Assembly: GCA_902802535.1 (NCBI GenBank)
Contig: CADCML010000003.1
Location: 80,272-144,271 of the forward strand
Direction of reading: 5' to 3'
Origin: an uncultured Bacteroidia bacterium
Lineage (GTDB): Bacteria; Bacteroidota; Bacteroidia; Bacteroidales; F082
DNA length: 64,000 nt
The stretch's first letter is position 1; each line of letters starts with the position of its first letter. Below are positions 5,227 through 14,635 of this stretch, piece by piece. Position numbers and translations under genes: made by a program. The notes beneath the pieces were generated by a model. The model did not search any database and was not told where the DNA came from. It saw only the letters and a list, made by a program, of their open reading frames with translations.

Positions 5227-5763
5227 TTATGACTTTGACATAATTGGTAATAATGGCATAGGGATTGCTTTTAACTCCAATTTGACTTTATCTTGGAAAT
5301 TGTTTTTTGATAGAAAATATTCCTGTAATTCTTTTTTTATCAGTGCTAATGTTGGTACGACAAGCCAAAAGTTCAATTTCTTATCATTGTATTGCTTTGA
5401 AAGAAACGAAGATGCATTATAAAGAATCCATTCTATTTTCTGTTTCCCAAAACAAGCGCGAGATTTGGTTGAAAACTTGCACTGGATATAGGCTTTGAAA
5501 TCGTCTTTGCTGATAATGATGTCCATTCCACCATCAAGAAACCCTTTGTGTAAGCCTAGGTATTCAACTTGGAAACCTTCCTCTTCATATTTTTGGCCAA
5601 CATACTTTTCGTAAATATAACCCCAATCACTGGAATCTAAATCGGAATATTGGTACTTATGAATAGTGCAGTTGCCTGTTTTAGAAATGATTCTGACAAC
5701 ACGACTATTATGGTCAATTTCTAATCGACCTTTTGACAGGTTTGATGCTACATGCTTTGTCAT
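5227..5763 (-). CDS. Mrr-like restriction endonuclease domain protein
   Basis: A 178-residue protein whose centre carries the Mrr-type nuclease fold. It shows WGYIYEKYVGQKYEEEGFQVEY (glutamate on the first helix), then GGMDIIISKDD (catalytic aspartate) and YIQCKF (the Q-x-K version of the PD-(D/E)xK motif). These enzymes cut DNA, often modified DNA. No separate DNA-recognition domain is obvious in the first 45 residues (RLEIDHNSRVVRIISKTGNC). The gene is AT-rich compared with the sigma operon it faces, and lies 54 bases downstream of the AAA ATPase on the same strand. The two may form one transcript. The fold is well supported; the target is unknown. Confidence 0.75.
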   Translation of the reverse strand: MTKHVASNLSKGRLEIDHNSRVVRIISKTGNCTIHKYQYSDLDSSDWGYIYEKYVGQKYEEEGFQVEYLGLHKGFLDGGMDIIISKDDFKAYIQCKFSTKSRACFGKQKIEWILYNASSFLSKQYNDKKLNFWLVVPTLALIKKELQEYFLSKNNFQDKVKLELKAIPMPLLPIMSKS

Positions 5764-5817: not shown

Positions 5818-6957
5818 TCAAATCCGCTTCAACCAAAGGCCGAGAAAGCGGTCATACACGATGTAACCTTCGGAAGTCTGATAGACCAAATCCTTATCAA
5901 CCAACACTTTCAATGCCGACTTGACACTGCTGGCACTGGGCAGTTCAAAGCGTTTGATAAACTCATTGCCCAACGGCTGTTCAACAACATCCGCATGGGC
6001 AATGGCTTTGAGCAGACTGAACTGGTTGTCGGTCAAAAACGAGACAAGCATCTGATAATGTGATGCCAAGGCATTGACATGAAACAGAATAGCCTCGATC
6101 GCTTGTCTGTCCGTTTCCACCTTTTTCCCCTGCTCGTACAACCGATTCAGGATGGCTTGCAGATACCAAGTATAGCCGTCGAAACGCTGATAGATATTAT
6201 GGAACACCTCTGGGCTGAACGAGCCTTTCTTTGCCTCAAAGAACTTTCTGGCAAAATCATAGTAGGTTTCCTCTTGAAGTGGCTCCAGATTCATCAGTTG
6301 CGTACTCTGATAGAAAGGCCTATTGGGAGCACAAAACATCTCTTCCATCAAATGCTTCTTGCTACCGGAAAAGATAAACTTCACATGGTGTATAAACTGG
6401 ATATAGGAACGCAACATGGCCTCGGTGCCTTTTTCAGGATATTCCGTAATTTGCTGAAACTCATCGATGGCTAAATACACGGGCTTGTTCAGGTCGTTCA
6501 GATGGGTGAAGATGCTCTTGAGCGTGTATTCAGCCTGCACAGGAACCACGCTGACGGAAACAGTGGGCAATCCAGTCATCAAATCAGGGGTAATCGTAGG
6601 CCGTAATCCCTTGAAGAAATCCAGAACCTTGTTGCCAAACGACTTCTCCCTTTCCAATGCGTCTTCGATAACTGCCCTGCACAATGTTTCCACAAATTCC
6701 TGTAGGTTTTTGGTCGAGAAGATGTCAACATAAATGCAAATAGCATCCTTGTTTTCCTTCTTAATTTGATAGAATGCGTGGTTTATTAGCCCTGTTTTTC
6801 CTATTTTTCTTGGAGAAATTAGGGTTAAATTGCGCCCATTATTGAGTGCAGAAATCATGTTTTTTGTTTCTTCCTCACGATCGCAGAAATATTCTGGACC
6901 TTCATATCCCTGATAAACAAACGGATTATCAAGTTGTTTCTGTTTTGCTTTTGCCAT
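5818..6957 (-). CDS. AAA ATPase of the archaeal-ATPase (STAND-like) family
   Basis: A 379-residue ATPase. Near the N-terminus, YEGPEYFCDREEETKNM is followed by Walker A SPRKIGKTGL and a Walker B region VYLAIDEFQQI about 150 residues later. The C-terminal third holds a winged-helix-like segment (NQFSLLKAIAHADVV, SASSVKSALKVLVDKDLVY). Bacteroidetes carry many such proteins; none has a clear general function, and some act in defence. ATG 6957 (MAKAKQKQ) was chosen over an in-frame ATG at 6975; both lie downstream of a good promoter. The promoter-to-start interval contains two copies of a palindrome, suggesting dedicated regulation. The Mrr-like nuclease lies 54 bases downstream. Confidence 0.8.
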   Translation of the reverse strand: MAKAKQKQLDNPFVYQGYEGPEYFCDREEETKNMISALNNGRNLTLISPRKIGKTGLINHAFYQIKKENKDAICIYVDIFSTKNLQEFVETLCRAVIEDALEREKSFGNKVLDFFKGLRPTITPDLMTGLPTVSVSVVPVQAEYTLKSIFTHLNDLNKPVYLAIDEFQQITEYPEKGTEAMLRSYIQFIHHVKFIFSGSKKHLMEEMFCAPNRPFYQSTQLMNLEPLQEETYYDFARKFFEAKKGSFSPEVFHNIYQRFDGYTWYLQAILNRLYEQGKKVETDRQAIEAILFHVNALASHYQMLVSFLTDNQFSLLKAIAHADVVEQPLGNEFIKRFELPSASSVKSALKVLVDKDLVYQTSEGYIVYDRFLGLWLKRI

Positions 6958-6985
6958 AACGATATGTGTTTTCATTGCGTAAATC

Positions 6986-7229: not shown

Positions 7230-8459
7230 ATGAATAAAGCCGCCCAAATCATCAAGAAATACACCAACGTCAGCCTGATGCTGCGCATCTTTATCGGACT
7301 GGTCATCGGCGCGGTGTTGGGGTTGTTGGTGCCTTCGTGGACAGGCATCGGCATCCTTGGCAGGATGTTTGTCAGTGCCTTGAAAGGCATCGCCCCTGTG
7401 TTGGTTGCAGTGTTGGTGACCTCGTCCATCGCCAAGGCGGGCAAAGGGCACGGGCAACGTTTCGCCGCCTTGATTGGAGTCTATATGTTGAGCACCTTCA
7501 TCGCGGCCATCTGTGCGGTGGTTGGTAGTTTTTTGTTCCCCGTGACTTTGCAATTGGCAGAAATGCCCGAGATGGAAGGTGCAGCGGGCTCGCTGTCGGA
7601 GGTGTTCACCAACCTGCTGACGGGTATGCTCACCAACCCCATCATGGCCATCGCCAATGCCAACTACATCGCCATCTTGTTTTGGTCCATCATCATCGGC
7701 ATTGCCCTCTAGAAATTGGCTAATAGAACCACCATTGCCGTGGTCCACGATTTTGCCACGGTGATTTCAAAAGTAGTGAAATGGATTATCGAGTTCGCCC
7801 CGTTCGGCATCCTCGGACTGGTCTTCACTACCGTGTCGGAGAACGGCCTTGAGGTCTTCACGACATACGGTCACCTGTTGCTGCTTTTGGTGGGCTGCAT
7901 GTTGGTCAACACCATGGTTTTCAATCCACTCATTTCTTTTGTCGTGTTGCGGAAGAACCCTTATCCGTTGTTGTTCACTTGCTTAAAGGAGAGCGGGCTG
8001 AATGCCTTTTTCACACGCTCCTCGGCGGCCAACATCCCCATCAACATGGCATTGTGCAAGAAACTCAATCTCGATGAGGACTTTTATTCCGTCAGCATTC
8101 CTTTGGGTGCTACCATCAACATGGATGGTGCCGCCGTGACCATCACTGTCTTTGCACTTGCCGTGGCACACACTGTAGGTGTGGAGGTCAGTTTCGCTTC
8201 GGCGGTGTTTTTGGGTCTTATTGCCACCCTCGGCGCTTGCGGTGCCTCGGGCGTGGCGGGTGGTTCGTTGTTGCTTATCCCGATGGCCTGCTCGTTCTTC
8301 GGCATCGGCAACGATGTGGCGATGCAGGCTGTTGCCATTGGTTTCATCATTGGCGTGGTGCAGGACTCCATCGAGACCGCCCTCAATAGCAGCGGCGATG
8401 TGTTTTTCACTGCCACGGCGGAGTATTATGACAGGAAGAAATCCAATAAACGAATTTGA
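7230..8459 (+). pseudogene. sstT: Serine/threonine:sodium symporter (SstT-like) interrupted by an in-frame TAG
   Basis: A dicarboxylate/amino acid:cation symporter family gene, closest in feel to SstT, which imports serine and threonine with sodium. The first part (7230-7712, 160 codons) starts MNKAAQIIKKYTNVSLMLRIFIGLVIGAVLGLL and ends IIIGIAL before TAG at 7710-7712. The same frame continues without interruption to 8459 with [21 protein letters not shown] and the conserved [14 protein letters not shown] and [14 protein letters not shown] transport motifs. Together they make about 409 residues, the family's normal length. A C-to-T change from CAG would explain the stop. It could be a genuine nonsense mutation, a sequencing error, or two expressed fragments. 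Confidence 0.8.
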
Positions 8460-8489
8460 CCAAACACAAAGTAAGTTTTCATCACTTAT

Positions 8490-8518
8490 TTGCCATATCA
8501 GAAAAAAGCGTATATTTG
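8490..8518 (+). promoter_or_regulatory. Promoter driving the restriction-modification leader
   Basis: TTG at 8490-8492, an 18-base spacer, then TATATTTG at 8511-8518, a full match to the Bacteroidetes consensus. Transcription would begin near 8524, giving a leader of about 330 bases before the restriction gene. Confidence 0.6.
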
Positions 8519-8703
8519 CAAATGAAAATGAACGCTAATTGTTTCATTTATATATAAACAGTCAAAACAATAAAATCAAATCATAGAACACTAATAAAAT
8601 AAGAATAAATAGAATATAAAATAGCGTTTGCAATTTATTTGGCACTGCCTTGAAACCTAGGAAATTTCAATTCGTAGTTACCAATCTGAATAAGTCTTCA
8701 AAC
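8519..8703 (+). other. AT-rich 5' half of the restriction-modification leader
   Basis: This gene-free stretch is strongly AT-rich. AACGCTA at 8531-8537 can pair with TAGCGTT at 8622-8628. TTGAAA at 8650-8655 can pair with TTTCAA at 8665-8670. No convincing coding sequence is present. Confidence 0.4.
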
Positions 8704-8851
8704 GTCCTGCGTAAGCGTGGACGTGGACTTATCAATGGTAACGGGCAATTCCTAGGGCCTCAAGGCGTGGATAAGAAAACATCCGCGCTTCTTATGTGCC
8801 CTGCCGCATTGCCCGCAAGTCCGATAAATGCCCACGCTCAAACGACAGGAC
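8704..8851 (+). ncRNA. Unidentified structured RNA: six nested helices just before the restriction gene
   Basis: Six helices nest inside one another to form a single rod. P1 GTCCTG 8704-8709 with CAGGAC 8846-8851. P2 AGCGTGG 8714-8720 with CCACGCT 8832-8838. P3 GGACTT 8725-8730 with AAGTCC 8817-8822. P4 CGGGCAAT 8742-8749 with ATTGCCCG 8808-8815. P5 AGGGC 8754-8758 with GCCCT 8798-8802. P6 GCGTGGAT 8765-8772 with ATCCGCGC 8781-8788 (one T-G pair), closed by an 8-base loop. Internal loops are small and asymmetric; the largest is 11 bases opposite 1, between P3 and P4. The last paired base is four bases before ATG 8856, so the rod could control ribosome access. I recognise no riboswitch, ribozyme or 6S/SRP/RNase P signature. 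It might instead act as a DNA palindrome. Confidence 0.6.
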
Positions 8852-8855
8852 AAAT

Positions 8856-11800
8856 ATGATAGATATAGAGAAAAGTCCCATCCTCAACAATCCCTACGAG
8901 GAACCGGCTTGGCACTATGACACCGATCTCGAAGGCAACTTGGATTACGAAAGGATACTTGAAGGCCGACGACCATATACGTCACAAATAGGCATCCAGC
9001 CCAAACAGGCAGGCAGCGACACGCTGTTTCATGGATCGGACATTGAGGATAGCGACCCCAATGCAGAGTTTATCAACCGTATGAGGCGCATCGTGAAGCA
9101 ATGGCGTGAAACTGACTATCCTCATACTACACGAGTCACCCGCGAGTTGCTTAACTTTTGGTTTTGCAACCCTGAACGGCAACACTTCCAACGCCTTTTC
9201 TTTTGTCAACGTGAGGCAGTAGAAACCGCTATCTACCTAAACGAAGTGGCCGATAGTGACCCAAATATGGGTCGTCATATTCTCAACCAATTATCTACTC
9301 GACAGCATAGCGTCTCGGAAGATAGCGCCTTTGTATTGCCACGGACGGCCTTCAAAATGGCTACAGGCACAGGCAAAACCGTGGTGATGGCCATGCTGAT
9401 ACTCTATCACTACATTAACAAGCGCGAGTATCACAACGACACCCGCTTTGCCGACCATTTCCTCATCGTGGCGCCAGGCATCACTATTCGCGATCGTCTT
9501 GGTGTGTTGTTTATTGACGACAAGGCCAATTTCAACGTAGCCAACGACTATTATCATAAACGTTGGTTGATACCTGAATCCTATCGTCACTTGATGGGCG
9601 GTCTCAATGCGGCCATCACCATCACCAATTACCATGTGTTTGAGCCAAAGATATTTACAGGAAAGAAATCAAGTCCGTTGGATGGCAAGTTGGTGTACAA
9701 CAGCGATACAGGTGAAATGGAAAAATGCAATGACAAAGAACCTTTCAGCAGTGTCATTTCGCGAGTGTTGGGACGTAACATGAAAGGCAAACGCATCGTG
9801 GTAATCAACGATGAAGCACATCATTGCTACCTGCCCAAGACATCTTCCTTGTCAAAAAAGGATGAGGAAACACAGGAAACCGAACAGGAGAATGAGAAGG
9901 CTATGGTTTGGTATGAAGGGTTGCGTCAAATGAAACTCCTCGGCTATCGCATTCAGAACGTTTACGACTTGTCTGCTACTCCCTACTATCTGAAAGGTTC
10001 TGGTTATGAACCTTATTCTCTCTTTCCTTGGGTGGTGAGCGATTTCGGTTTGGTTGATTCCATCGAAAGTGGTTTGGTGAAGATTCCTTTTCTGCCTACA
10101 TACGACAACAGCGATGACCTCACCGAACCAAAACTGCGCAATATCTATGAACACATTCGTACCGAGTTGCCAAAGAAAGGACAACGTGGTGCGCGAAAAG
10201 CAGCCAAAGCCGAAGGAAAAGACATAAAAAACGAGGTTGAGCAGGCTCCAAGGTTGCCAGAATTGTTGACTATGGCGTTGGAGCAGTTCACTCGCGACTA
10301 TGAGAAATATGACCAAGGCTTGAGGCAAAACGACGAGTCAAAAATTGACCTTTTCTCTACTCCGCCTGTTTTCATCGTGGTTTGCAACAACACCACCGTT
10401 TCCAAAGAGGTTTATAAATACATTGCTGGCTATGAAACTATCGGTGCTGATGGCAAACGCATTTATGTGGATGGTCACTTCAACATTTTTTCCAACTATC
10501 ACAATGGAATGCCCAAAATCAAGCCACCAACCTTGATTATCGACAGTGAAGCAGTGGACAACGCCGCAGGCACCATTGATGATGAGTTCAAGCGGGTGTT
10601 CCGTGATGAGATTGAAACTTTCCGCCGTGAATACGCTGTGTTGCATGGCAGTGGCAGTGCCGACCGCTTGACAGAAGGTGATATTTTGCGTGAAGTGGTT
10701 AATACGGTGGGCAAGCCTGGGATGTTGGGCGGTCATATACGTTGCGTAATATCCGTTTCAATGTTGACCGAAGGCTGGGATGCCAACACAGTGACCCACG
10801 TTTGCGGTGTGCGTGCTTTCGGTAGCCAATTGCTTTGTGAGCAGGTGGCCGGTCGTGCGTTGCGCCGAGTGAGTTACGAATTGAAAAAGTATGATGCCAC
10901 AACTGGCGAGGAATTGCCCGAAGGAAGCAAACGGACCAAAGACGTGGTGCTGAAATTCCCGCCCGAGTATGCCCATATCATAGGCGTGCCCTTCAAAACC
11001 TTCCGTGGTGGTGCCACTCCGCCTCCTAATCCACCCAAACCCAAGACGGTGATAAAAGCATTGCCCGAACGCAAGGCGTTGGAAATCAAGTTTCCCAATA
11101 TCGAGGGTTATCGCAGTGAATCACCCGATGGCGAATTACGTGCTGACTACACTGACCATTACAAGTTCTGCCTCAATTTCAACGACATTCCCACCGAAAC
11201 CACCATGGGAAATCCCATTGAAAATCCTGACAAAAATCATGTAGTGCTCAAAAGTGACTATCGCGAGTTGCGCGATGCCGAAGTGGTTTATGAACTTACC
11301 CGACGGCTGATTCACTACAAGTTCAGCGACCGCGAAAACGGAGTCCAATTCCATCTTTTTGGAAAACTGAAACAGATTGTGCAGCAATGGTATGACAACC
11401 AAATAGAAATATTGGGTGGTGATGGCAGCAAGGAAATGCGTCGGTTGGTTGTCTTTTGGGATGAGAAAAAGACAGCTGACAACATCTACGAGGGCATACG
11501 CAAGGCCAACGCCAACAATGAGCGTATCACCGCCATTCCAAATTATTACAATCCCGAAGGTTCTTCTGAATATGTTTTCGGTTCCACCACCAAGGAGGTA
11601 TATCCAACCGTGAAGAGCCATGTCAACTTTGTGGTGGCCGATACCGATAGCTGGGAACAAAAGGCCGCCAAAGCATTGGAGCAGTTGCCCCAGATACAAA
11701 GTTATGTGAAAAATCATTTCCTTGGATTCTACATTCCGTATTTGGAAAACGGAGTGGAACATCGCTATATGCCCGACTTCATCGCCCAAGTCATTACCGA

Positions 11801-12008
11801 AGAGGGCGAAATGGTCAACCTCATCATTGAAATCAGCGGTTTCAGCAACGACCGCACTGGCGGCAAGGCGGCCAAACGCTATTACACTACCAACTATTGG
11901 CTTCCGGCTGCCAACAACATGCAAACCTATGGCCGTTGGGACTTCTTGGAGATCAATGATATTGACAACATCAAAGCATTACTTATTGAGAAAATAAAAC
12001 AATTATGA
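8856..12008 (+). CDS. Restriction enzyme helicase-nuclease subunit (type III Res-like, BPTD_3080-like)
   Basis: A 1050-residue superfamily 2 helicase with a C-terminal nuclease. Motif I is MATGTGKT at 168-175. Motif II is DEAH at 319-322, followed by motif III LSATPYYLKG. A motif VI-like segment, VAGRALRRVSYE, lies in the second RecA domain. The C-terminus carries a PD-(D/E)xK-like core: MPDF around 973-975 and IIEISG around 990-995. The expected catalytic lysine after the glutamate is a serine (E-I-S). Size and pairing with a DPPY methyltransferase fit type III or BPTD_3080-type systems. ATG 8856 (MIDIEKSPILNNPYEEP) is chosen; an in-frame GTG at 8796 lies inside the structured leader. The stop overlaps the methyltransferase start by four bases (ATGA), so the two are co-expressed. 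Confidence 0.88.
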   Translation: MIDIEKSPILNNPYEEPAWHYDTDLEGNLDYERILEGRRPYTSQIGIQPKQAGSDTLFHGSDIEDSDPNAEFINRMRRIVKQWRETDYPHTTRVTRELLNFWFCNPERQHFQRLFFCQREAVETAIYLNEVADSDPNMGRHILNQLSTRQHSVSEDSAFVLPRTAFKMATGTGKTVVMAMLILYHYINKREYHNDTRFADHFLIVAPGITIRDRLGVLFIDDKANFNVANDYYHKRWLIPESYRHLMGGLNAAITITNYHVFEPKIFTGKKSSPLDGKLVYNSDTGEMEKCNDKEPFSSVISRVLGRNMKGKRIVVINDEAHHCYLPKTSSLSKKDEETQETEQENEKAMVWYEGLRQMKLLGYRIQNVYDLSATPYYLKGSGYEPYSLFPWVVSDFGLVDSIESGLVKIPFLPTYDNSDDLTEPKLRNIYEHIRTELPKKGQRGARKAAKAEGKDIKNEVEQAPRLPELLTMALEQFTRDYEKYDQGLRQNDESKIDLFSTPPVFIVVCNNTTVSKEVYKYIAGYETIGADGKRIYVDGHFNIFSNYHNGMPKIKPPTLIIDSEAVDNAAGTIDDEFKRVFRDEIETFRREYAVLHGSGSADRLTEGDILREVVNTVGKPGMLGGHIRCVISVSMLTEGWDANTVTHVCGVRAFGSQLLCEQVAGRALRRVSYELKKYDATTGEELPEGSKRTKDVVLKFPPEYAHIIGVPFKTFRGGATPPPNPPKPKTVIKALPERKALEIKFPNIEGYRSESPDGELRADYTDHYKFCLNFNDIPTETTMGNPIENPDKNHVVLKSDYRELRDAEVVYELTRRLIHYKFSDRENGVQFHLFGKLKQIVQQWYDNQIEILGGDGSKEMRRLVVFWDEKKTADNIYEGIRKANANNERITAIPNYYNPEGSSEYVFGSTTKEVYPTVKSHVNFVVADTDSWEQKAAKALEQLPQIQSYVKNHFLGFYIPYLENGVEHRYMPDFIAQVITEEGEMVNLIIEISGFSNDRTGGKAAKRYYTTNYWLPAANNMQTYGRWDFLEINDIDNIKALLIEKIKQL

Positions 12009-14635
12009 ACAACAAGCATAAACCAGTCGATGCCATCAAGCACGACAACGACACCCGCGCCACCATTCCCACCACAGAACTTGCTGGTAGCGAAGCGGCT
12101 GCCGTTTCCGATGAAAAGCAAAGCAGTTACGATACCTTTCGCCACGAATTTAACCGTGGTCGCGACCCCGAACTTTATTGGTTGAACAAGTACAACAACG
12201 ATGACGAAGAAACCCAACGTAGCGACTTACGGGTAGATATTCGCAGTCTCTACGTCCACGAACAGATACGTCCAGAAATGCTTATCAATAATTTGTATAG
12301 CATTGGTGAACAACGCCGTAACGAAAATCAAGGATTGCTCTTTGACGAGGCGGAAATCCCCAATGTCATCGAAGACGAATTGGCGCGTGTCACCGAGTAT
12401 TATCGCCATACTGACAAATGGAAGAATCGTTTGGTGCAAGGCGATTCGTTGTTGGTGATGAATTCACTGTTACGGCGTGAAGGTATGGCTGGCAAAGTCC
12501 AATGCATCTATATGGATCCTCCCTACGGCATCAAGTTTGGCAGCAACTGGCAAATGAAACTTAATAGTCGCGAGGTAAAGGACAACGACCAAAATATCAG
12601 CGGTGAACCCGAGATGATTAAGGCTTTCCGTGACACTTGGGAGTTGGGCATCCATAGTTACCTTTCCTACTTGCGTGACCGCCTCGTATTGGCTCGTGAA
12701 CTGCTCACCGAAAGTGGCTCCGTTTTTGTGCAAATCAGCGATGAGAATGTTCATCTTGTCCGGAATATTATGGATGATGTGTTTGGGAGCGAGAATTTTG
12801 TTAGTCAGATTATTTGTCAAAAAACAACAGGTGCAGGTAGTCCTGGCGAATTAACTGCGCCCGCAACGGTAGCGGATTATATTGTTTGGTATGCAAAAGA
12901 TAGAGAAAACTATAAATATAGAAAGGTCTTTTTACAAAAAGAATTTGGAGGAGATGGTTCAACAGCATACAAAAAAATCGAACTTGCTGATGGAACAAGA
13001 ATGTCGATTAGTGATTGGGAAAAGAAAAACAATACGATATTTGACTATTCGCACAAGCCAAAAGGAGCAAAGGTGTATGGATTAGACAATTTGACCTCAC
13101 AATCAGGCGGAGAAAATGCGAGATTTCCCATAGAGTATAATGGGAAAATTTATACGATTAATAATGGCAGTTGGAAAACATCAAAAGAAGGCATAAACAC
13201 TTTACTACAAAAGAGACGAATTGATGCTTCATCAAAAGGGGGGCTTGGTTATATCAGATATTTTGAGGATTTTCAATATATGCCAGTTTCTTGTTTATGG
13301 ACCGATACAGTAGGACAAAACCAGTTTGGAGGAGATAAACTATATGTAGTGCAAACAGGAAACAAAGTCATTCAGCGTTGCATCCTAATGACCACCGACC
13401 CAGGCGACCTTGTGCTTGACCCCACTTGTGGCAGCGGTACCACGGCGTATGTTGCAGAGCAATGGGGCAGACGTTGGATTACCATCGACACCAGCCGTAT
13501 CGCCCTCAACATCGCCAAGAAGCGGTTAACTACAGCGGTGTTTCCCTACTACGAGCTGTATGACAAAAGCGCAGTGCCAGACATACGGCAAGGCTTTGTC
13601 TATAAGACCGTGCCACATATCACCCTTAAATCGCTGGCCAACAACGAACCTGCTGAAGAAGAAGTGCTCTATGACCAACCTATTGAGGATAAGAAACGGA
13701 TGCGTGTGAGTGGTCCCTTCACAGTGGAAACACTGCAAAGTTACGATGTTACTTCGCCTGATGATGTCGCTCTCACTGCCACCGAAGCGGAGGAAAACTT
13801 GCGTTTTCAGCAACGTATCTTCAGTCACCTGCAAGCCAATGGTATACGTAATGGCGACAGCACCCAGCAGGCTAAATTCATCAGCGTGGAAGCCGTTGCC
13901 AATCCTTACCTTAACGCCAAAGGCATCTATAGAGATGAGGAAAGCCGCGAGCGGTTGGTGTATTTTCACATCGGGCCAAAGTTTGGCACCGTCAGCCGTC
14001 AGGCCGTCAATGCGGCAGTCAAGGAGTTCAGAGAGACCAAGTTACAGGAAGGTGCTTCATGGTTGGTGCTGTTGGGATTCTCGTTCGAGGACACCATCAA
14101 CGACAAGGACTACAACCTCGGCCAGTTCACCGTCAGCAAGGTGCGTATGCACGACGACTTGATGCAAGAAGGTCTATTGAAGAAAGACACCAAAGCAGGT
14201 TCGTTCATCACCATCGGAGAACCCGACATTGTTTTAGTGAAAGACTCCGCTGACACCTGCCACATAGAGATTCGTGGTTTGGACATCTACGACCCCATCC
14301 GCGATGATGTGAAAGCCCGCTCGGTAGAAGACATTGCATATTGGGAGTTGGACAGCGACTATAATGGCCAGATGTTCATTGTGCGCAGTATGCACTTCTG
14401 TGGTGGCGAGAAGAAAGAGTTTGACGCTTGGCGCAAAGGTCTCAGCAACGCTGCTTCGGCCTTCACCAAAAAGAATGCCGAGCGCACCCTTCGTATGACC
14501 TTCAGCGACGAGTTATGGGACACCCTTTATGCTTTCCGCAGTGAGCCACTACCTTACAAACAAGGTACACGTCTTGCTGTTCGCGTAGTTTCACAATTTG
14601 GCGAGGAAAGCACTAAAGTGATTGGGATGGAGTAG
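12005..14635 (+). CDS. Site-specific DNA methyltransferase, beta-class (Mod subunit)
   Basis: An 876-residue adenine or cytosine-N4 methyltransferase that protects host sites from its partner nuclease using S-adenosylmethionine. Catalytic motif IV DPPY is at 171-174, before the cofactor motif I DPTCGSGT at 472-479; this order defines the beta class. The ~200 residues between them (about 248-456, bases 12745-13375) should hold the target recognition domain. They are visibly AT-rich, with AAA/AGA/ATA-heavy codons unlike the balanced flanks, suggesting that the specificity segment was swapped in. The 400-residue C-terminal extension has no motif I recognise. Start ATG overlaps the restriction-subunit stop. 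Confidence 0.92.
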   Translation: MNNKHKPVDAIKHDNDTRATIPTTELAGSEAAAVSDEKQSSYDTFRHEFNRGRDPELYWLNKYNNDDEETQRSDLRVDIRSLYVHEQIRPEMLINNLYSIGEQRRNENQGLLFDEAEIPNVIEDELARVTEYYRHTDKWKNRLVQGDSLLVMNSLLRREGMAGKVQCIYMDPPYGIKFGSNWQMKLNSREVKDNDQNISGEPEMIKAFRDTWELGIHSYLSYLRDRLVLARELLTESGSVFVQISDENVHLVRNIMDDVFGSENFVSQIICQKTTGAGSPGELTAPATVADYIVWYAKDRENYKYRKVFLQKEFGGDGSTAYKKIELADGTRMSISDWEKKNNTIFDYSHKPKGAKVYGLDNLTSQSGGENARFPIEYNGKIYTINNGSWKTSKEGINTLLQKRRIDASSKGGLGYIRYFEDFQYMPVSCLWTDTVGQNQFGGDKLYVVQTGNKVIQRCILMTTDPGDLVLDPTCGSGTTAYVAEQWGRRWITIDTSRIALNIAKKRLTTAVFPYYELYDKSAVPDIRQGFVYKTVPHITLKSLANNEPAEEEVLYDQPIEDKKRMRVSGPFTVETLQSYDVTSPDDVALTATEAEENLRFQQRIFSHLQANGIRNGDSTQQAKFISVEAVANPYLNAKGIYRDEESRERLVYFHIGPKFGTVSRQAVNAAVKEFRETKLQEGASWLVLLGFSFEDTINDKDYNLGQFTVSKVRMHDDLMQEGLLKKDTKAGSFITIGEPDIVLVKDSADTCHIEIRGLDIYDPIRDDVKARSVEDIAYWELDSDYNGQMFIVRSMHFCGGEKKEFDAWRKGLSNAASAFTKKNAERTLRMTFSDELWDTLYAFRSEPLPYKQGTRLAVRVVSQFGEESTKVIGME

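Follow-up and report, generated by a model that had tools for sequence, protein, structure and literature searches.

What fills the space between a promoter and the first start codon of a restriction–modification (RM) operon, and what might it do there? The question arises in a 64,000-nucleotide stretch of DNA from an uncultured Bacteroidia bacterium (Bacteroidales, F082) – hereafter the window – in which a first-pass annotation, made from the sequence alone, had described a leader of about 330 bases ending in an unbranched RNA rod directly upstream of a restriction gene and a methyltransferase gene. The rod was proposed to control translation of this pair, or else to be an independent structured RNA or a DNA palindrome. 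Judged by comparison with related sequences, positions 8622–8855 are one copy of an RNA family, a leader of roughly 230 bases that is often found several times per genome in the Bacteroides group. This family is real: it is supported by covariation and lacks an Rfam match, and there is strong evidence that it has mutually exclusive pairings and a conserved terminator. From 5′ to 3′, the leader consists of the motif M, the P1 5′ strand, the hairpin H1 (with helices P2, P3 and P4), the strand AP, the terminator hairpin T with its U-run, the strands DS and seg5, and the start codon (Table 1).

Table 1. Predicted features of the leader and its operon, as positions in the window, with the alternative partners of the leader strands
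Feature	Position	Strand	Details
Predicted Bacteroidota-type promoter	8489..8518	+	−33 TTTG 8489–8492, 18 nt spacer, −7 TATATTTG 8511–8518
First part of leader, A/T-rich, poorly conserved	8519..8621	+	Conservation profile
5′ motif M	8622..8642	+	Family form xAGC-GUUN-GCUx-UUURUUC; here TAGCGTTTGCAATTTATTTGG; partners seg2, seg5 or own small hairpin
P1 5′ strand	8646..8663	+	Outer and inner parts split by conserved AAA; R1 alignment, covariation
Hairpin H1	8677..8742	+	P2 8677–8683:8736–8742, P3 8690–8696:8726–8732, P4 8702–8710:8715–8724; contains seg2 (about 8689–8703), P4 3′ strand, seg3 (8725–8733)
Rod of the first-pass annotation	8704..8851	+	Alternative fold of P4 strands, seg3:seg5, AP:DS and T
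Rod, outer runs (predicted fold)			8704–8709:8846–8851, 8710–8712:8842–8844, 8714–8720:8832–8838, 8722–8724:8828–8830, 8725–8730:8817–8822
Rod, inner runs (predicted fold)			8742–8749:8808–8815, 8753–8758:8798–8803, 8761–8762:8795–8796, 8763–8772:8781–8790
Strand AP	8742..8767	+	Partner P1 5′ strand or DS
Terminator hairpin T and degraded U-run CTTCTTA	8763..8794	+	In the family, T3′ also pairs with P4 3′ strand
Strand DS	8798..8815	+	Partner of AP in read-through RNA
Strand seg5	8817..8838	+	Partner M (closing helix) or seg3 (outer rod)
Restriction gene, BPTD_3080 family (NF046055; Pfam ResIII)	8856..12008	+	First gene behind leader
DNA methyltransferase (Pfam N6_N4_Mtase)	12005..14635	+	Second gene
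Exclusive pairings of seg2			M or seg3
Exclusive pairings of P4 3′ strand			P4 5′ strand or T3′ (directly before U-run)
Exclusive pairings of AP			P1 5′ strand or DS beyond U-run
Exclusive pairings of M			seg2 or seg5 (just before start codon)

The consensus promoter claimed at the head of the leader is matched by promoter-like sequence at 8489–8518, whose TTTG and TATATTTG boxes are of the Bacteroidota type; a sigma-70-type scan, which does not cover Bacteroidota promoters, misses it. Of 145 copies of the family, 86 have TAnnTTTG in the 128 nt preceding the motif, compared with a mean of 8.7 and a maximum of 20 in 200 mononucleotide shuffles. The idea that the motif is itself the promoter was set aside, given this canonical −7 box upstream. 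A short ORF of 11 codons (8522–8557, ATG AAA ATG ... TAA) stands at the very start of the leader in the window. Among the 77 representatives with a promoter, however, only 12 have an ATG ORF of at least six codons starting before the motif – not a consistent feature – and attenuation through a leader peptide was rejected on this ground. Further upstream, two ORFs in the same frame (7230–7712 and 7716–8459), with just an in-frame stop and a single codon between them, resemble one membrane-transporter gene that may be interrupted or contain a sequence error. The neighbours at 5227–5763 and 5818–6975, both on the minus strand, have from their translations the look of a restriction-endonuclease-type fold and of an ATPase, respectively, and neither has an NCBIfam match at E up to 0.001.

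Folded alone, 8704–8851 does form one unbranched rod, with 51 predicted pairs in nine uninterrupted runs, of which the 39 pairs in six helices originally reported are a fair simplification; its last paired base, 8851, indeed lies 4 bases before the ATG at 8856. The predicted energy is −65.9 kcal/mol, whereas dinucleotide shuffles average −42.1 (sd 3.9; z −6.2) and none of 1000 reaches it, and the leader as a whole (8519–8860) is unusually stable too (z −4.7, 0 of 100 shuffles). The rod is nevertheless not the whole feature, as the conserved element of the family begins at 8622, 5′ of the rod. When 8622–8858 is folded with the motif included, the rod together with M:seg2 (−81.0 kcal/mol) is not optimal: the combination of H1, AP:DS and M:seg5 reaches −83.5 kcal/mol, and that of the P1 rod, H1 and M:seg5 reaches −78.7 kcal/mol. 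In the longer stretches 8519–8860 and 8519–8870, the rod is part of the best fold. What had been presented as the structure is, by predicted energy, one of at least three leader folds within 5 kcal/mol. It consists of AP:DS enclosing T, extended by seg3:seg5 and by the P4 strands paired with the last bases before the start codon.

How widespread is this element? In the window's own genome, blastn picked up a second copy, on another contig and with 72% identity, and similar sequence was found in 50 of 199 relatives at E up to 0.001, some of these matches being short. A covariance model, R1, was built from 18 copies and shortly calibrated, with rough E-values; the window copy reaches 160.6 bits under this model (8622–8794), and 10 matches, down to 31.8 bits, occur in its genome at E up to 0.01. 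R1 also matches in 108 of the 199 relatives, own genome counted (E up to 1e-4), with 88 of 99 genomes of the window's genus represented and up to 11 matches in a single genome. In wider samples, matches occur in 105 of 393 genomes of the order (E up to 1e-3) and 24 of 395 of the phylum (E up to 1e-4). Because these many-genome searches scored 3 to 14 candidates per genome, the copy numbers are lower bounds. The exact 19-base motif TAGCGYTTGCTATTTRTTC is present in 16 of the 393 order genomes, its reversed control in none, and a scan of a species-genome collection yielded at least 116 stretches with the motif; among the 80 matches listed from it, nearly all belong to Bacteroidales or to groups placed within Bacteroidales, and a Balneolaceae locus has the motif without an R1 match. 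Many loci were chosen by the exact motif TAGCGTTTGCTATTTRTTC, so the conservation of the motif within that subgroup is true by construction. A phage or plasmid origin was considered and rejected: viral contigs gave one exact motif match, without an R1 match, and blastn matched the window copy to no plasmid or phage.

Searches of Rfam 15 at the gathering threshold returned nothing in the window, in agreement with the earlier failure to match any known RNA class, and nothing at 16 further loci. At 17 divergent loci nothing was returned over the copies, the three hits lying elsewhere (DUF805 RNA twice at locus L244, and one tRNA); a relaxed search gave two window hits below the gathering score and none for one divergent copy. 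At L244, one DUF805 RNA (RF03081; 980–1045) is situated between the divergent copy (781–939) and the gene, and the second hit is at 1944–2012.

The 5′ part of the element, from P1 through P4 to T, was assessed in several alignments. In a MAFFT alignment of 18 copies its pairs are kept in 93.2% of cells, against 81.2% in shuffled alignments and 32–45% in slid controls – the structure being favoured over its slid versions because it was drawn from one of those rows – and 120 cells have changes on both sides, against 43 in shuffles. Two model-fitted alignments, A3 (95 distinct rows) and A5 (52 rows), which retain a few reverse-strand or cut-off matches, both have 95.2% of cells paired, with changes on both sides at 42 of 43 and 41 of 43 pairs, respectively, counts that lean toward the structure by construction. 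RNAalifold, applied to a first MAFFT alignment of 31 copies, recovered only P4, the terminator hairpin and a motif hairpin; P1–P3 were missed, we think, because they are poorly aligned in that set, and the remaining helices emerged with the hand-picked 18-copy seed, a structure drawn from one row, and the covariance model. P1 has invariant unpaired bases, and internal loops are conserved both within P1 (GAAA/ACCUC) and between P3 and P4 (GNAAA). Covariation is strong, and the element is a structured RNA located in a leader that very probably is transcribed, in line with the first-pass annotation.

An alignment-free test – in which the duplex energy of a copy's own strands is compared by permutation with that of strands from other copies – allowed individual pairings to be examined. 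From 206 R1 matches with enough flank, 124 representatives at no more than 85% similarity were obtained, reduced to 123 by removing one with an empty segment – whose placeholder energy had distorted several absolute values in the set of 124 – and to 119 by removing four reverse-strand chance matches. Since kinship among copies inflates the permutation scores, we rely on a strict set of 32 representatives (similarity ratio at most 0.72) and on direct compensatory changes. Seven pairings score in both the 119 copies and the strict 32: M:seg2 (z −15.7 and −8.1), seg2:seg3 (−16.5 and −9.1), M:seg5 (−9.9 and −5.3), P4-3′:T3′ (−16.2 and −9.3), T5:T3′ (−10.0 and −6.1), and the two discussed below, AP:DS and seg3:seg5. 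The P1 5′ strand with AP reaches z −42.8 and P2 −47.1 in the 124 copies, and P1 −21.6 in the strict set. Control pairings gave z −0.2 (M:seg3), +1.5 (P1-5′:seg2) and +3.0 (P1-5′:DS) in the 124 copies; −0.7 (seg3:dsA), −1.9 (AP:dsB), −0.2 (P4-5′:T5) and −1.4 (P4-5′:T3′) in the 119; and +0.4 (M:seg3) and +1.7 (P1-5′:seg2) in the strict set, where the intended negative control seg3:dsA rises to −2.9. The P4-5′:P4-3′ figure for the 119 copies is not clean, as the P4 windows overlap in the loop. A candidate antiterminator, M:T5, scored z −3.9 in the 119 copies but not significantly in the strict set (z −1.4, 415 of 5000); it is kept as no more than a possible pairing. Two unplanned pairings in the 119 copies, seg3:T5 (z −10.1) and M:dsA (−4.5), also score, so the network may be richer than our model of it.

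Covariation, for which the first-pass annotation had proposed a covariance model, is strong in the inner helix of its rod and weaker in the outer parts. The inner helix, 8742–8758:8798–8815, is AP:DS (z −18.6 in the 119 copies, −8.5 in the strict 32), whereas the outer seg3:seg5 scores −4.8 and −3.8; in the strict copies, the remaining extensions score −7.0 (P4-5′ with the pre-start bases) and −2.3 (P4-3′ with the seg5 region), less than the AP:DS core.

M is complementary to seg2, a strand also used by P3. On A3, where this pairing is outside the model, 94.7% of its cells pair, against 32–48% when slid, and one pair switches from A-U to G-C in 26 sequences. Shuffles already pair 92.0% of the cells, because M hardly varies in the motif-selected set, and 47 of 500 shuffles reach four pairs with changes on both sides. 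Read directly from their sequences, divergent copies show M and seg2 changing in concert. Similarly, P4 covaries (as helix 5 in all three alignments) while its 3′ strand also covaries with T3′. Comparison of the copies' sequences establishes that several leader strands have two mutually exclusive, co-varying partners.

Which process do these competing pairings serve? Of 119 copies, 105 have a U-run of at least four behind T (70 of the 83 RM-type copies and 35 of the 36 others), compared with 10 of 119 in a downstream control window, and this conservation points first to transcription termination. The family has both the stem and the U-run of an intrinsic terminator, and it has an alternative pairing that withholds a terminator strand, with P4 competing against P4-3′:T3′. 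In the 36 divergent copies, pairing of T3′ with the local T5 is slight (z −2.1) and its pairing with the P4 3′ strand is good (z −7.5), and the letters of the strand before the U-run change together with those of the P4 3′ strand. Unlike most of its relatives, the window copy has kept its stem and pairing strands but has a degraded U-run (8785–8795, CTTCTTATG), and a terminator scan called none in it. It may therefore read through constitutively or act mainly after transcription, and its function is less certain than that of the family.

The leader most likely acts as a switch that stops or permits transcription of the gene behind it, as far as its sequence allows this to be judged, and we put the probability that the family is a bistable cis-acting transcription attenuator, spread across Bacteroidota, at roughly 60%. 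In one state, M:seg2 together with P4-3′:T3′, or the local hairpin T, would form an intrinsic terminator at which RNA polymerase stops; in the other, P1 and H1 would withhold the P4 strand from the terminator, and transcription would enter the gene. The choice between the two might be made by a small molecule, a protein, the speed of the polymerase or a second RNA. With P4 formed there would be no P4-3′:T3′ stem, and with P4 broken – for instance by M:seg2 – the strand would be freed. After read-through, AP:DS and M:seg5 could form a closed leader with the terminator hairpin inside it, and the rod of the first-pass annotation (AP:DS and seg3:seg5, with M:seg2) would be a competing late fold that may influence translation too. 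Partition-function folding of the RM-type copies favours P1 and H1 until the U-run has been made; among the 36 others, P1 is retained in 92% of full leaders. When leaders are folded at equilibrium as far as the U-run, seg2:seg3 (H1) persists in 97–99% of copies, so the state with P4-3′:T3′ would need kinetics or a factor.

The same late pairings could instead make the leader mainly a translational switch, in which refolding before the start codon (M:seg5, seg3:seg5, AP:DS) gates the ribosome and the U-run hairpin is incidental or serves RNA trimming. Such a role would suit the position of seg5, which adjoins the start codon and co-varies with M, the broken U-run of the window copy, and the folding of full-length RM-type leaders, in which at least four pairs are expected for AP:DS (dsA) in 78%, for M with the seg5 region (dsB) in 70%, and for seg3:seg5 in 18%. 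The U-run is widely kept, however, and the start codon is unpaired in all three compared folds of 8622–8858, and we consider this alternative unlikely on present sequences. About as doubtful is a ligand-sensing riboswitch – a special case of the attenuator, with the two folds as its expression platform – whose putative aptamer for a metabolite or nucleotide second messenger would comprise the P1 and P3/P4 loops. While the invariant unpaired P1 bases, the alternative folds with a terminator, and the presence of several copies per genome before unrelated genes are all in keeping with it, the targets share no pathway pointing to a metabolite, and the conserved P3–P4 bulge is also explained by pairing with M. 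A further alternative, considerably less probable than these two, is that the element produces a small RNA of its own, terminated at the U-run, and that the gene behind merely borrows its promoter. A promoter-like sequence and a terminator would be expected to yield a discrete RNA, but DS and seg5, which are located past the terminator, co-vary with AP and M, and the gene behind follows too regularly.

This regularity is evident in the genes themselves. In 95 of 113 copies, an ORF of 100 codons or more begins on the same strand no further than 170 nt from the model end; the corresponding counts are 17 of 111 for the mirror position and 0 of 108 for the opposite strand over that interval. The start codon, taken as the first ATG of the longest such same-strand ORF – a rule that partly sets the spacing – has a median distance of 228 nt from the motif start, with 86 of 105 within 195–260 nt. 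Pfam searches of 107 first downstream proteins found N6_N4_Mtase (15), N6_Mtase (12), Eco57I (6), MmeI methyltransferase (6), EcoRI methylase (5), D12 methyltransferase (4), HSDR_N_2 (4) and ResIII (4), counts that overlap, as some proteins match more than one family. None of these methyltransferase and RM families is among the commonest 25 of 100 Pfam families of 103 upstream neighbours, in which DUF1016_N is the most frequent (7). PADLOC models behave likewise: downstream, methyltransferase models lead after mad2 (23), with 15 members for one type III model, for example, and upstream the candidate family PDC-S02 leads with 7. Of 105 downstream proteins, 27 contain the motif [DNS]PP[YFW], as does 1 of 104 upstream proteins. 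When 30 of the 46 copies selected by motif in the species-genome scan were drawn at random, the first gene belonged to a DNA-methyltransferase or RM family in 17 (one of them below the Pfam cut-off), a share that applies to the motif-selected subgroup.

Divergent copies often precede proteins that, from their translations, look secreted, with the appearance of a signal peptide or lipoprotein signal. Of seven other copies scanned in the window's genome, three stand before methylases (one each of EcoRI, N6_N4 and Eco57I type), three before proteins without a family, and one before a protein that carries a secretion sorting domain. In the genome of loci L216 and L003 (G000:C47), another copy precedes an N6_N4 DNA methylase, so that several RM-type genes of a single cell lie behind variants of this leader. 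Three of the 199 relatives have a BPTD_3080-type gene, and as the RNA is directly upstream of it in all three (divergent in two, at 54.9 bits), the leader goes with the gene at these loci; most leader copies serve other genes. A delay of nuclease expression, which the first-pass annotation had in mind, is not the general purpose of a leader that is not RM-specific and also precedes methyltransferases and secreted-looking proteins.

The motif also occurs without the rod: AGCGTTTGC, with an A/T-rich stretch upstream, is found directly before DUF1016/YhcG-like nuclease genes (L274 at 2165, 3364, 4482 and 4931; L275 at 2996; L119; L136), 16–31 nt from the ATG at the sites measured. At L274, four gene starts of DUF1016/YhcG appearance are followed by a full copy of the RNA (6022–6192) with larger genes. 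Such sites may be a shared start region, a cassette boundary or a target in trans.

A recurrence of this kind before each gene of an array is what a cassette boundary might produce, and the dispersal of 10 matches in one genome is, to the letter, the repetition of a palindrome at unrelated sites that the first-pass annotation had named as counting against its proposal. The element might be a DNA repeat or mobile element (a MITE, REP-like sequence or recombination site) with palindromes acting at the DNA level. We regard this as the least probable reading of all, since the copies covary in structure, have a strong position and strand preference before a gene, and carry a promoter upstream, and since the window copy has no blastn match in plasmids or phages. 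The copies are divergent, the second one in the same genome included, and stand before same-strand genes. Structural covariation and this placement argue for an RNA family, not an inert repeat.

A large, multicopy, co-varying leader before many RM types offers a handle on the safety and timing of Bacteroidota RM operons, and, if one signal controls its copies, restriction, other defence genes and surface proteins would be linked in one regulon. Tentatively, and with less confidence than the attenuator itself, one may imagine a phylum-wide class of RNA switch, not described in the literature searched, that places RM, other candidate defence, and surface or secreted genes under one signal, for example a nucleotide second messenger, a NusG-type factor or a phage-induced RNA; the DUF1016-like motif-only sites would also belong to this regulon, and leader fragments complementary to the motif could reach them in trans.

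Known transcription attenuators with intrinsic terminators include trp-type leaders, T-box elements and terminator riboswitches. The leader family resembles them in having a promoter, a structured leader, exclusive pairings, a stem with a U-run, and a gene behind. It differs in lacking a consistent leader peptide, in the further conserved pairing after the terminator, and in its targets, proteins of restriction and methylation and proteins that look secreted. Leaders of horizontally acquired operons with a short conserved element soon after the transcription start are known from the RfaH/ops and JUMPstart systems, and the family likewise has a short conserved element early in transcripts of variable operons, its TAGCGT being shared with ops. 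Unlike ops and JUMPstart, the element pairs with its own leader, and JUMPstart (RF01707) has no match in the window or at 33 further loci.

Several candidate structured RNAs of Bacteroidota have been described – 6S-Flavo, Flavo-1, Bacteroidales-1, Bacteroides-1 and Bacteroid-trp (PMC2864571; Flavo-1 also in PMC9723704, as far as the available portions of both go) – and none of these five Rfam motifs was found over the copies in the window and at 33 further loci at the gathering threshold. A full-text literature search brought up no paper that we recognised as describing the family, nor did we recognise it in the available parts of PMC8040213, PMC2864571, PMC7366714, PMC9723704, PMC3874152 and PMC12707154; supplementary tables lie outside the scope of such a search, and an earlier unnamed listing is possible. 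According to the accessible part of PMC8040213, a survey of the human microbiome lists 3161 candidate RNAs, and terminator-like palindromes from Bacteroidetes are among them: HMP2_4205 and HMP2_1032, for example, are reported as palindromes of 106–132 bp near TPR or TonB genes. With the leader family these share predicted Rho-independent terminators, occurrence in Bacteroidetes and proximity to genes, and the two may overlap. RNA control of RM operons in which the nuclease gene comes first is described, in the portions available, for EcoRI and Eco29kI (PMC3874152, PMC12707154), where the regulators are antisense RNAs from reverse promoters, whereas the family described here is a sense-strand leader, and one common to non-RM genes too.
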